Positions 11,767-19,045 of a stretch of DNA of 21,394 nucleotides are shown piece by piece. Source of the DNA: a virus; IMG/VR virus record IMGVR_UViG_3300020281_000138, positions 1 through 21,394 of that record; one strand, given 5' to 3'. The notes beneath the pieces are model-generated. The model searched no databases, was not told the DNA's origin, and saw only the letters and a list, made by a program, of their open reading frames with translations. Position 1 is the first letter of the stretch, and each line of letters starts with the position of its first letter. A program made the translations under genes and the position numbers.

Positions 11767-11985
11767 TTATCCTTTCTTTTTATATAAGTTATCAAAAGCA
11801 TTAAAAAGACAATCACAAAAAAATTGATAATTTTTGTCTTTCATACAAATTGATAATTTTTTGCTATGTTTGACAACTTGTCTTTTTGAAAAAAACTGTT
11901 CCCAAGTGTCCTCTTCATAGTGAAAAAGACCTTTTGTTTTTTTCACTAAAAAGCTCGCAAACCTTTTAATTTGTTTTTTGTTCAT
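11767..11985 (-). CDS. Hypothetical basic protein, 72 residues
   Basis: The product starts MNKKQIKRFASFLVKKTKGL and ends with a cysteine-containing helix (FFCDCLFNAFDNLY). Its 19-base leader GAAAGGATAAAAACAAATG is identical to those of the two genes upstream (12120-12548 and 12626-12844). It has its own promoter at 12014-12041, placed after the first hammerhead ribozyme. Confidence 0.6.
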   Translation of the reverse strand: MNKKQIKRFASFLVKKTKGLFHYEEDTWEQFFSKRQVVKHSKKLSICMKDKNYQFFCDCLFNAFDNLYKKKG

Positions 11986-12013
11986 TTGTTTTTATCCTTT
12001 CTTTTTAATATCC

Positions 12014-12041
12014 TTTATAGTCCTATAAATAGTAAAATCAA
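12014..12041 (-). promoter_or_regulatory. Sigma-70-like promoter, minus strand
   Basis: Minus strand: TTGATT (12036-12041), 16-base spacer ending ATAGGAC, TATAAA (12014-12019). It lies between the first hammerhead ribozyme and the gene at 11767-11985, and closely matches the promoter at 10493-10520. Confidence 0.6.
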
Positions 12042-12064
12042 CTATAAAAAATATAATTGTTTCT

Positions 12065-12120
12065 GATCTCATCAGTTGAGGATTAACCTCAATACACCCC
12101 CAATTGGGGGTGTTTCGATC
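12065..12120 (-). ncRNA. Type II hammerhead ribozyme 1
   Basis: Minus-strand order: GATC (stem II, 12120-12117), GAAA (12116-12113), stem III ACACCCCC/GGGGGTGT closed by AATT (12113-12094), cleavage nucleotide A at 12093, stem I TTGAGG/CCTCAA with loop TTAAT (12092-12076), core CTGATGA (12075-12069), GATC (stem II, 12068-12065). Every invariant core base is present, including the A15.1-U16.1 and G10.1-C11.1 pairs. Stems I and III are closed and stem II is open, which defines type II. Cleavage is predicted between 12093 and 12092 after GUA. The 5' arm shares the G of the TAG stop of the preceding gene. It cannot be an ordinary terminator, as no T run follows on this strand. Confidence 0.9.
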
Positions 12121-12548
12121 TATGCAACCTCTTTTTTATCTTTTTGATATAAATCCCAATTCACTAAAGCAATATAATCTAAATCTGCAAGATATTTTAT
12201 ATCTTCATCAATCCATGCTTTTTTAATTCTATCACCATAATTATTGACTAATGATTGTGAATAAATACAAGATTTTTTGATTGTTAATAAATCTTTTACA
12301 CCCCATTTATTTGGATTTAATAAACTTTCTGCAATATGTTTTACTGTAAAAAGTTTTGCACAATCATTTATAGATGCAGATCCTTTGTGGTGTTCTGCCC
12401 AATCGCCAAATCTGTGTTGCTTTTCGTCTTTTCTATTCATATTAAATAATTCATCTCTGTATGGTGTCCATGTGATATTACTTAAAATATGTAGTTTGCA
12501 GAATGCTCTGTTAACTCTTTTATTTATTTCTTTTTGTTCTTTGTTCAT
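12120..12548 (-). CDS. Hypothetical protein between two hammerhead ribozymes, 142 residues
   Basis: The product starts MNKEQKEINKRVNRAFCKL and is helical and charged, with DWAEHHKGSASINDCAKLF near the middle and CIYSQSLVNNYGDRIKKAW later. No nuclease or ligase motif is evident and no family is recognised. Its leader contains GAAAGGATAAAAACAAATG. The gene lies wholly inside the 510-nt segment between the two predicted self-cleavage sites, and its TAG stop is the first part of ribozyme 1. A role linked to the ribozymes or the RNA segment is possible but unproven. Confidence 0.65.
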   Translation of the reverse strand: MNKEQKEINKRVNRAFCKLHILSNITWTPYRDELFNMNRKDEKQHRFGDWAEHHKGSASINDCAKLFTVKHIAESLLNPNKWGVKDLLTIKKSCIYSQSLVNNYGDRIKKAWIDEDIKYLADLDYIALVNWDLYQKDKKEVA

Positions 12549-12574
12549 TTGTTTTTATCCTTTCTTTTGTTTCT

Positions 12575-12626
12575 GATCTCATCAGTTGAGGATTAACCTC
12601 AAGACCCCCTTGAGGGGGTTTCGATC
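12575..12626 (-). ncRNA. Type II hammerhead ribozyme 2
   Basis: Minus-strand order: GATC (12626-12623), GAAA (12622-12619), stem III ACCCCC/GGGGGT with loop TCAA (12619-12604), cleavage nucleotide C at 12603, stem I TTGAGG/CCTCAA with loop TTAAT (12602-12586), CTGATGA (12585-12579), GATC (12578-12575). This gives the classical GUC cleavage triplet, between 12603 and 12602. Compared with ribozyme 1, stem III is two pairs shorter on both strands and has another loop, which is structural covariation. The 5' arm again overlaps the TAG stop of the gene before it. The downstream leader and ATG at 12548 follow within 27 bases. Confidence 0.92.
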
Positions 12627-12844
12627 TAATTAAATGCAAGTCTTCTCTCAATAGTAAATCCTTTTGCAAGTGATAAACCTTGACAGTGTTTAAGGGCGTA
12701 AACTTGTGCAATTGTAGACTTTGAAAGATTTTGTTTTTTCATAAAACCATCTAATTGATTTGGTTCTAAGTAAAAGCTTTTGCTTTCTCCATCTACTTGA
12801 CCCCATATAAAATAATTTAATTTAAGTTTTTTTTCTTTTGCCAT
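12626..12844 (-). CDS. Hypothetical protein upstream of ribozyme 2, 72 residues
   Basis: The product starts MAKEKKLKLNYFIWGQVDGE, a beta-like basic start, then PNQLDGFMKKQNLSKSTIAQ and a helical end. The middle recalls small DNA-binding folds, but no family can be named. Leader GAAAGGATAAAAACAAATG is the same as in the two genes that follow. Its stop TAG is part of ribozyme 2. It is the first gene of the minus-strand block, with a predicted promoter at 12882-12909. Confidence 0.6.
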   Translation of the reverse strand: MAKEKKLKLNYFIWGQVDGESKSFYLEPNQLDGFMKKQNLSKSTIAQVYALKHCQGLSLAKGFTIERRLAFN

Positions 12845-16677: not shown

Positions 16678-19045
16678 TGTTCAAGAACCAACAGACGATA
16701 AGGGACCGATAGAAGTTATACCTGAAGAAGATGGTGGTGTAACGTTAGACTTTGAACCGGGTGCAATCAATGTCCCTGGAACCGAGAATCATTTTGATAA
16801 TTTAGCAGACATATTACCTGATGATATTTTAGAACCAATTGGTTCTGACATGGTTAACAATTACATGGACTATAAAGCTTCAAGAAAAGATTGGGAACAA
16901 TCTTATACTCAAGGTTTAGATCTGTTAGGTTTTAAGTATGAAAATAGAACTGAACCATTTCAAGGAGCGAGTGGTGCAACACACCCAGTTCTTGCAGAGG
17001 CAGTAACACAGTTTCAAGCACAAGCTTACAAAGAATTATTACCAAGTGACGGACCTGTTAGAACACAGATTATAGGAATTAAAAATCAACAAACTGAATC
17101 ACAATCGCAACGTGTTAAAGATTACATGAATTATCTAATCATGGATCAAATGAAAGAGTATGAAGAAGAGTTTGATTCTATGTTATTTCATTTACCATTA
17201 GCTGGTTCTACATTTAAAAAAGTTTACTACGATGTACCATTAGGTAGAGTGGTTTCTAAATTTGTACCAGCAGATGAATTAGTTGTGCCATACACTGCAA
17301 CAAGTATTGATGATGCAGAGTCTGTAATACACGTTGTTAAAATGTCAGAAAACGAATTACGAAAACAACAAGTAAATGGTTTCTACGTAGATGTAGAGTT
17401 AGCACCACCGAGTAGTGTTGAACAAAACTCTGTAGAGAAAAAAGAAAAAGAATTAGATGGTACTAAAAAATCTGGTAAACAAGAAACAATATACACTCTA
17501 TTAGAGTGCCATGTGAACTTAGACCTAGAGGGTTTTGAAGATCAAGGACCTGATGGACCTACAGGAATTAAATTACCATACATTGTAACTGTTGAAGAAG
17601 GAAGTAGAACAGTTCTAGCAATTAGAAGAAATTATGCGCCCAACGATCTAAAGAAAAATAAAATCCAATATTTCGTTCATTTTAAATTTCTTCCAGGTTT
17701 AGGATTTTATGGCTTTGGATTGATCCACATGATTGGCGGATTAAGCAGAACTGCAACAGCTGCTCTCCGTCAATTATTGGATGCTGGCACACTATCAAAC
17801 TTACCTGCTGGATTTAAACAAAGAGGAGTAAGGGTTAGAGATGAAGCATCTCCAATACAACCAGGTGAGTTTAAGGATGTCGACGCACCAGGTGGAAGTT
17901 TAAGAGATGCGTTCTTTCCTTTACCTTACAAAGAACCATCACAAACATTATTAAATTTATTAGGTGTTGTAGTATCAGCTGGTCAAAGATTCGCTGCTAT
18001 TGCTGACATGCAAGTGGGTGATGGTAATCAAGCCGCTGCTGTTGGAACTACAGTTGCATTATTAGAACGTGGCTCACGTGTCATGTCTGCAATACACAAA
18101 AGATGTTACGCAGCCATGAAAGATGAATTTAAATTATTAGCAAAAGTCGTTGCACAATACTTACCACCAGAATATCCATACGATGTTGTTGGTGGACAGA
18201 GAAATATTAAACAAGCCGACTTTGATGATAGAATAGACGTTGTACCGGTTGCAGATCCTAATATATTTTCTATGTCACAAAGAGTGACTTTAGCACAAAC
18301 ACAACTACAACTTGCAACATCTAATCCACAGATACACAACTTGTATCAAGTTTATAGAAACATGTATGAAGCAATTGGTGTTAAAAATGTAGATGCAGTT
18401 CTACCACCACCAGCTCCAAATGCACCTATGGATCCAAGTATGGAACACATAAATGCTTTGAATGGAAAACCTTTTCAAGCTTTTCCTGGTCAAGACCATA
18501 GAGCTCATATCACTGCACACTTAAACTTCATGTCAACTAATATGGTTAGAAATAATCCTGCAATTATGGGTGCAATACAGAAAAATATTCTAGAACACAT
18601 CAGTTTAATGGCTCAAGAACAAGTACAATTAGAGTTTAGAGAACAAATGCAAGAGATGATGTTGATGCAACAACAAGCAGCAATGAATCCAATGGTACAA
18701 CAACAGCTACAAATGATGACAAATCAAGTTGAAGCTAGAAAATCTGTCTTGATTGCAGAGATGACAGAAGAATTTATGAAGGAAGAGAAGAAAATTACTT
18801 CACAGTTTGACAATGACCCATTGTTAAAACTAAAATCTAGAGAAGTTGACCTACGTGCTATGGAAAATGAACGTAAAAAAGAATACGACAAAGCTCAAAA
18901 TGACATTGCAAGAGCAAGATTGATGCAATCAGGTGAAAATTTTGACGAAAAACTAGAGCAGAATGAAGATTTAGCTAAATTAAGAGCTGGAGTTAGCCTT
19001 GCAAAGCAAGGAATTCAAGATGCTAAGATAATGATAGACAATTAA
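16598..19045 (+). CDS. Portal protein
   Basis: The 815-residue product follows the large terminase in the usual head-gene order and has portal size. It has an acidic, flexible N-terminus (1-60) and a conserved core with GASGATHPVLAEAVTQFQ (about 125), FDSMLFHLPLAGSTFKKVYY (about 190-210), VPADELVVPY and FLPGLGFYGFGLIHMIGG (about 365). After a clip/stem-like region comes a Gln/Met-rich coiled-coil C-terminus (MMLMQQQAAMNPMVQQQLQ) to the end. It would form the dodecameric ring through which DNA enters. The family is nearest, by eye, to P22-like portals. TGGAG lies upstream of the ATG. Confidence 0.8.
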   Translation: MAEIDKGLPNTRTKLEVPSQEEIEEVSVQEPTDDKGPIEVIPEEDGGVTLDFEPGAINVPGTENHFDNLADILPDDILEPIGSDMVNNYMDYKASRKDWEQSYTQGLDLLGFKYENRTEPFQGASGATHPVLAEAVTQFQAQAYKELLPSDGPVRTQIIGIKNQQTESQSQRVKDYMNYLIMDQMKEYEEEFDSMLFHLPLAGSTFKKVYYDVPLGRVVSKFVPADELVVPYTATSIDDAESVIHVVKMSENELRKQQVNGFYVDVELAPPSSVEQNSVEKKEKELDGTKKSGKQETIYTLLECHVNLDLEGFEDQGPDGPTGIKLPYIVTVEEGSRTVLAIRRNYAPNDLKKNKIQYFVHFKFLPGLGFYGFGLIHMIGGLSRTATAALRQLLDAGTLSNLPAGFKQRGVRVRDEASPIQPGEFKDVDAPGGSLRDAFFPLPYKEPSQTLLNLLGVVVSAGQRFAAIADMQVGDGNQAAAVGTTVALLERGSRVMSAIHKRCYAAMKDEFKLLAKVVAQYLPPEYPYDVVGGQRNIKQADFDDRIDVVPVADPNIFSMSQRVTLAQTQLQLATSNPQIHNLYQVYRNMYEAIGVKNVDAVLPPPAPNAPMDPSMEHINALNGKPFQAFPGQDHRAHITAHLNFMSTNMVRNNPAIMGAIQKNILEHISLMAQEQVQLEFREQMQEMMLMQQQAAMNPMVQQQLQMMTNQVEARKSVLIAEMTEEFMKEEKKITSQFDNDPLLKLKSREVDLRAMENERKKEYDKAQNDIARARLMQSGENFDEKLEQNEDLAKLRAGVSLAKQGIQDAKIMIDN

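Follow-up and report, generated by a model that had tools for sequence, protein, structure and literature searches.

The role of hammerhead ribozymes in phage genomes has been a standing question since 2011, and the locus analysed here raises it again: what would a phage gain from one hammerhead before and another after a single gene? The window, by which we mean the whole stretch of 21,394 nt (IMG/VR record IMGVR_UViG_3300020281_000138), encodes a terminase with 70.7% identity to that of Pelagibacter phage HTVC027P and 62.4% to that of HTVC023P, which identifies it as a fragment of an uncultured HTVC027P/HTVC023P-type phage. Pelagiphages are ocean phages that infect SAR11 bacteria. Both ribozymes belong to an accessory block on the minus strand that has the small terminase gene on one side and the large one on the other. 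The counterpart block of HTVC027P contains gp33 and gp34, for which high expression in the early to middle stages (6-9 h) is reported (PMC12753301). Read along the minus strand, the region of interest in the window holds the following features:

12626-12844, minus: F73 family gene, 72 aa, which opens the operon and precedes copy 2 (open reading frame)
12575-12626, minus: hammerhead copy 2, type II (by sequence, descriptor, RF02276 and subfamily model R1)
12623-12626 with 12575-12578, minus: copy 2 stem II, 4 bp
12620-12622, minus: copy 2 GAA
12604-12619, minus: copy 2 stem III hairpin, 6 bp
12603, minus: copy 2 H17, a C, in the triplet GUC
12603/12602, minus: copy 2 cut, predicted from the layout
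12586-12602, minus: copy 2 stem I hairpin, 6 bp
12579-12585, minus: copy 2 CUGAUGA
12569-12574, minus: 3' tail AGAAAC of copy 2, putative tertiary-contact element, conserved among sites
12557-12563, minus: AAAGGAT, Shine-Dalgarno-like, after copy 2 and ahead of the start of the 142-aa gene (by sequence)
12120-12548, minus: bracketed gene, family F20, 142 aa (open reading frame)
12065-12120, minus: hammerhead copy 1, type II (same evidence as copy 2)
12117-12120 with 12065-12068, minus: copy 1 stem II, 4 bp
12114-12116, minus: copy 1 GAA
12094-12113, minus: copy 1 stem III hairpin, 8 bp
12093, minus: copy 1 H17, an A, in the triplet GUA
12093/12092, minus: copy 1 cut, predicted from the layout
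12076-12092, minus: copy 1 stem I hairpin, 6 bp
12069-12075, minus: copy 1 CUGAUGA
12059-12064, minus: 3' tail AGAAAC of copy 1, putative tertiary-contact element, conserved among sites
12014-12041, minus: promoter-like TTGATT-16-TATAAA after copy 1, a weak candidate from a shared leader, not in the consensus scan
11767-11985, minus: gene downstream of copy 1, family F72, 72 aa (open reading frame)

Both copies possess the full hammerhead core, namely C3 U4 G5 A6 N7 G8 A9, G12 A13 A14, A15.1-U16.1 and an H17 other than G. Stems I and III are closed by loops and stem II is open, the type II arrangement. Copy 1 reads GATC-GAA-ACACCCCCAATTGGGGGTGT-A-TTGAGGTTAATCCTCAA-CTGATGA-GATC from 12120 to 12065, and copy 2 reads GATC-GAA-ACCCCCTCAAGGGGGT-C-TTGAGGTTAATCCTCAA-CTGATGA-GATC from 12626 to 12575. 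The first-pass annotation had described two complete type II hammerheads in tandem on the minus strand of a phage operon, a description that sequence, descriptor, covariation and R1 support. Its triplets (GUA and GUC) and its count of 8 and 6 stem III pairs agree with the sequence, and its cut positions, 12093/12092 and 12603/12602, are the correct predicted sites for a type II layout. Its argument that pairing was kept through sequence change applies to stem III, which differs between the copies, but not to stems I and II, which are identical.

RF02276 aligns with both copies over model positions 1-66, scoring 28.8 bits on copy 2 (E 8e-6 for the single family, 0.034 for all Rfam) and 27.2 bits on copy 1 (E 2e-5 and 0.087, respectively). 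The Rfam type II model, proposed in the first-pass annotation as the check, therefore matches the two elements, but neither reaches its gathering score of 37 bits, and a default-threshold Rfam scan of the window listed nothing. Low-threshold Rfam matches in the window to mir-3747, rli52, rimP and mir-320 were judged to be chance. The type I model RF00163 gave no match on nine records, and the control likewise gave none. When the descriptor was run on 300 Markov-shuffled windows, it returned 15 matches, one of which scored as high as the real copies. R1 gives 85 bits for copy 1 and 82.8 bits for copy 2, both sequences being part of its own alignment. Hammerhead identity is decided by comparative evidence from relatives, since covariation can be followed in 58 distinct sequences.

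The search pattern that found these relatives prescribes the core, some of stem II, the tail and approximate loop lengths, and leaves every stem I base free; it matches 118 IMG/VR stretches. In the fetched loci, 122 pattern sites also satisfy the stem descriptor, and the other 19 keep stem I but carry an imperfection (mismatch, bulge or lost base) in one of stems III and II. Sites in L086, L089 and L094, with a mismatched GACC/GATC stem II and a missing stem III base, appear to be decaying ribozymes. Across 17 pairs in the 58 distinct sequences, all from IMG/VR marine contigs, 99.7% of cells are standard pairs, as against 33-50% in slid controls, in an alignment that leans towards pairing because the descriptor accepted no hairpin stem of fewer than three pairs and because the 19 imperfect sites were omitted. 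Both sides have changed in 12 of the 17 pairs. Double-change cells number 181 versus 36 in shuffles (0 of 500 shuffles reach the observed value), and the covariation score is 0.537, whereas shuffles give 0.142 and slid controls no more than 0.124. The covariation argument rests on the double changes at stem I pairs 4-6, pairs that the descriptor did not demand. Among 130 sites the core is CUGAUGA in 127 and CUGAAGA in three, and H17 is C in 110 and A in 20; neither count is independent, as the descriptor demands the core. By structure and covariation, both elements in the window are genuine type II hammerheads, with self-cleavage predicted.

The subfamily has marks of its own. Loop I follows U-(U/A/G)-(A/G)-N-(U/G/A) with an invariant U1, an A directly precedes stem II in 130/130 sites, and the tail AGAAAC is present in 127/130, a count that is partly selected since AGAAAC belongs to the pattern used for the 118 stretches (it is absent from another pattern used). 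Commonly, though not universally, hammerheads of the RF02276 type form a pseudoknot of at least four pairs between loop I and the 3' tail; neither copy has it. A loop I/tail pseudoknot was rejected for UUAAU and AGAAAC, which show neither complementarity nor covariation; position 2 of loop I can be T, A or G, yet 127/130 sites have one and the same tail. Tertiary contacts are probably made by loop I, by the A in front of stem II and by the AGAAAC tail. With its fixed loop I and 3' tail in place of the usual pseudoknot, the subfamily is mostly missed by Rfam: one of eight members in five scanned loci, the L123 copy at 37.9 bits, passes the cut-off. In the minimum-energy folds of both copies the core and the 3' strand of stem II are tied up in a local hairpin, CUGAU-GAG-AUCAG (window 12063-12075 and 12573-12585, minus), and the ribozymes may therefore fold imperfectly. 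The closing pairs of this hairpin require the AG of the tail, which hardly varies among sites.

The position of the ribozymes relative to genes is rigid. In a placement set thinned for redundancy (101 of 148 sites), the ribozyme starts at most 1 nt from the upstream stop codon in 82/97, often using the G of TAG, and the next start codon follows 19-29 nt downstream in 84/95, with a Shine-Dalgarno-like sequence in between. In the window, the F73 stop codon TAG shares its G with copy 2 and the F20 stop codon TAG shares its G with copy 1, and AAAGGAT is predicted to be unpaired both before and after cleavage. Ribozymes also concentrate near operon starts, with 52 at joint 1, 22 at joint 2 and 13 at joint 3 (joint 1 or 2 in 74/93), and of 55 untied cases, 46 have more genes after the ribozyme than before it (sign test 4e-7, uncorrected for relatedness).

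The bracketed 142-aa gene illustrates this placement. Its product has 12 relatives with 61-86% identity across the whole protein, no match in Pfam, PHROGs, NCBIfam or PADLOC, and a structure prediction of low confidence (mean pLDDT 55.6). Where the gene comes after another gene (the window, L003 and L004), a ribozyme precedes it; where it is apparently first in the operon (L005-L007 and L014), none stands before it and one follows; in L008-L013 and Skadi-11 it has no adjoining ribozyme. The ribozymes at L003 1284-1352 and L004 2917-2987, which stand before the closest relatives of the bracketed gene, are pseudoknot-type hammerheads with different stems at the same stop/ribosome-binding-site joint; hence the joint is conserved, but not the ribozyme that fills it. 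The same stop/ribozyme/ribosome-binding-site layout recurs in 11 IMG/VR stretches with the pseudoknot subtype (two of them the L003 and L004 contigs), with the stop mostly 3-9 nt before the first matched bases. The first-pass annotation considered a tandem pair bracketing one phage gene unusual, but this arrangement had been reported (PMC3088659) and two or three ribozymes occur in 21 of 125 ribozyme-bearing loci. The more telling features, which it missed, are the stop/ribozyme/Shine-Dalgarno spacing, the position near operon starts and the gene swaps.

The ribozyme joins 37 upstream and 51 downstream gene families in 77 pairs, and 16 upstream families meet at least two downstream families; the joint is constant, the flanking genes are not. 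In some relatives one flanking gene is 97-100% identical and the ribozyme is shared, while the other side is wholly different. Between L116 and L118, identity is 98-100% in the 250 nt that lead up to the ribozyme, 100% in the first 50 nt of the ribozyme itself and ~45% beyond. L118 and L074 show the reverse, ~50% before the ribozyme, 92% at it and 98-100% after it, and identity switches similarly at the ribozyme in L087/L101, L007/L125 and L018/L053. Genes have thus been exchanged with a breakpoint at or beside the ribozyme. Both genes outside the ribozyme pair occur in other contexts: F73 homologues in L016 precede the same ribozyme but a different next gene, and the F72 homologue in L020 has a ribozyme after it, not before it. 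When a flanking gene is shared at ≥75% identity, stem III likeness is 79% if that gene is the downstream one versus 62% if it is the upstream one, against a background of 62%; ribozyme sequence would thus track the downstream gene somewhat more, a signal confounded by phage lineage. The shared ribozyme at swap points could reflect simple inheritance with one flanking gene.

Related ribozymes also occur in phages with another terminase (89% to HTVC106P), beside a divergent gene of family F0, which places the element in at least two pelagiphage lineages. Four isolates, HTVC027P, HTVC023P, HTVC024P and HTVC106P, gave no convincing R1 match (best 15.7 bits, E 0.07). Many homologous operons, including those of these isolates, have no convincing match, so the ribozyme function is dispensable. 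A scan of GTDB (84,980 species) with the subfamily pattern found none, and a search of 50,697 phage records with two representative ribozymes found no real match. HTVC027P (L136, MN698241.1) has an RNA of another family, Rfam Flavobacterium-1 RNA, at 17753-17873 minus (90.2 bits against a cut-off of 58.9). It lies immediately ahead of gp34/gp33, in the block that matches the ribozyme operon of the window, and is a structured RNA at the operon start of a cultured, transcriptome-profiled pelagiphage.

From structure, covariation, placement and gene swaps we infer how cleavage, its effect on mRNA and recombination may be connected. We think it likely that self-cleavage between cistrons yields single-gene mRNAs with hairpin ends, at joints of the accessory operon where genes are exchanged. 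The two hammerheads would act as joints between cistrons, at the end nearest the promoter, in an accessory operon of a lytic HTVC023P/HTVC027P-type pelagiphage. Each would cut the nascent polycistronic mRNA once as RNA polymerase passes, after one gene's stop codon and ahead of the next ribosome-binding site. Hammerhead cleavage leaves a 2',3'-cyclic phosphate and a 5'-OH. The upstream RNA would thus finish with the stem III hairpin, which is GC-rich, and carry a 2',3'-cyclic phosphate; the downstream RNA would have its 5'-OH at the foot of the stem I hairpin and, beyond that hairpin, an unpaired Shine-Dalgarno site. Exonucleases, and RNase E with its dependence on a 5'-phosphate, should be slowed by ends of this kind, and the first genes of the operon would become separately stable one-gene mRNAs without any protein, comparable to the work of RNase III in T7. 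Since each joint is the same ~60 bp element with stop and ribosome-binding site in register, homologous recombination there would swap whole genes, making the ribozyme the joint between swappable genes.

In some loci the joint may be followed by a new transcription start. The leader after copy 1 (window 11986-12056, minus) contains TTGAYT-16-TATAAA and AGGACTATAAAGGA, with the same or a variant leader in L027, L033, L041, L043, L060 and L115; it is absent at most loci, and a consensus scan did not list the candidate in the window. The shared leader is perhaps an internal promoter directly after the cut joint.

A broader form of this proposal, to which we attach only tentative belief, is that the stop/hammerhead/Shine-Dalgarno linker serves pelagiphages as a universal gene joint, both cutting mRNA and acting as the crossover point for accessory genes. 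If this were true, a gene landing between two joints would at once have an independent, end-protected mRNA.

Alternatively, the element might be kept mainly as a patch of DNA homology for gene shuffling, with self-cleavage incidental. Sharp identity switches at the element fit this idea, as do copies that are 85% alike within one contig and 65-67% between contigs, the pattern that recombination or duplication would give. However, the stems drift widely with 99.7% of pairing kept, which erodes DNA identity and preserves the RNA fold, and an unrelated hammerhead subtype occupies the same joints; we therefore consider this reading unlikely. It is more doubtful still that the bracketed gene leaves the transcript as a 510-nt RNA, cut out by the two ribozymes with a 5'-OH and a 2',3'-cyclic phosphate, and is circularised by RtcB or by the reverse reaction of a hammerhead re-formed from the RNA's own ends. 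The middle RNA has GAUC near both ends, across which a hammerhead could re-form, and stem II sequences are identical in all multi-copy loci but two. Those two, L031 and L036 (GATC/GATC then GACC/GGTC), would place a C-A mismatch at the ends of the middle RNA, a weak counter-argument; only one ribozyme is visible in 104 of 125 loci, many of which are contig fragments; and spliced or circular products were sought and not found by Perreault et al. 2011 (PMC3088659). A circle may form, but its support is poor. We give little credence to a regulated hammerhead, in which a ligand, protein or translation would switch leader cleavage and so control the next gene: the higher stem III likeness with a shared downstream gene (79% vs 62%) and the core-sequestering hairpin, a potential switch, would suit it, but that linkage is confounded by phage lineage, the 52-58 nt or so are all core and stems with no room for an aptamer, and next genes from 51 families share no regulated function. 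That a transcription terminator or chance hairpins mimic a hammerhead is highly improbable, because a GC-rich stem III in an AT-rich genome and RF02276 scores under the Rfam cut-off are outweighed by an invariant core with covarying stems and by an exact pattern in 118 IMG/VR stretches; a terminator was rejected, as the region has no terminator-like site.

For intercistronic cleavage at exchange joints, rigid placement and gene swaps make the so far vague notion of operon processing testable: an RNA joint would take over from processing by nucleases and make genes interchangeable. The idea that hammerheads cut long phage transcripts has been proposed before, in the work of Perreault et al. 2011 that described type II hammerheads, found several of them often flanking single genes or short blocks in prophages, and showed cleavage of three tandem sets in vitro and of the A. 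tumefaciens set also in E. coli (PMC3088659). In the part of the journal literature that was searched, we found no paper on hammerheads in pelagiphages and no earlier description of this subfamily, of its rigid stop/ribosome-binding-site placement near pelagiphage operon starts or of swaps at the ribozyme. Members of the subfamily may already be present in the metagenome alignments of that study (PMC3088659).

Like RF02276, the elements have a core CUGANGA...GAAA, closed stems I and III, an open stem II and predicted cleavage after GUH; unlike it, they score below the gathering cut-off and have the fixed loop I, invariant A and AGAAAC tail instead of a loop I/3'-tail pseudoknot. RNase III cuts the early polycistronic mRNA of T7 between genes and leaves hairpin ends. 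There a host enzyme produces 5'-phosphate/3'-OH ends, whereas here the RNA would cut itself. HHphage of the haloviruses HF1/HF2 likewise belongs to a lytic virus and lies 13 nt upstream of a start codon in the early region (PMC3088659). A transcript 5' end is mapped within 3 nt of its cut site. HHphage differs in its variant core with insertions, its archaeal virus and its single site before a helicase gene (PMC3088659). Tandem hammerheads of retrozymes also bracket a segment of a few hundred bases, but retrozymes are eukaryotic retrotransposons that encode no protein, and most of their hammerheads are of type I or III (PMC4918200, PMC7761336); the segment bracketed here is a conserved protein gene with its own ribosome-binding site. 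In PeSL cassettes of T4-type phages (Arbiol 2010 and Comeau 2014, as reported in PMC4503421), a short conserved regulatory element at gene boundaries likewise mediates exchange of small accessory genes, and the corresponding signature, an identity switch between otherwise unrelated neighbours, is found here in five locus pairs. PeSLs are early promoters with stem-loops and no ribozyme, whereas the pelagiphage boundary is a putative self-cleaving RNA placed after a stop codon.
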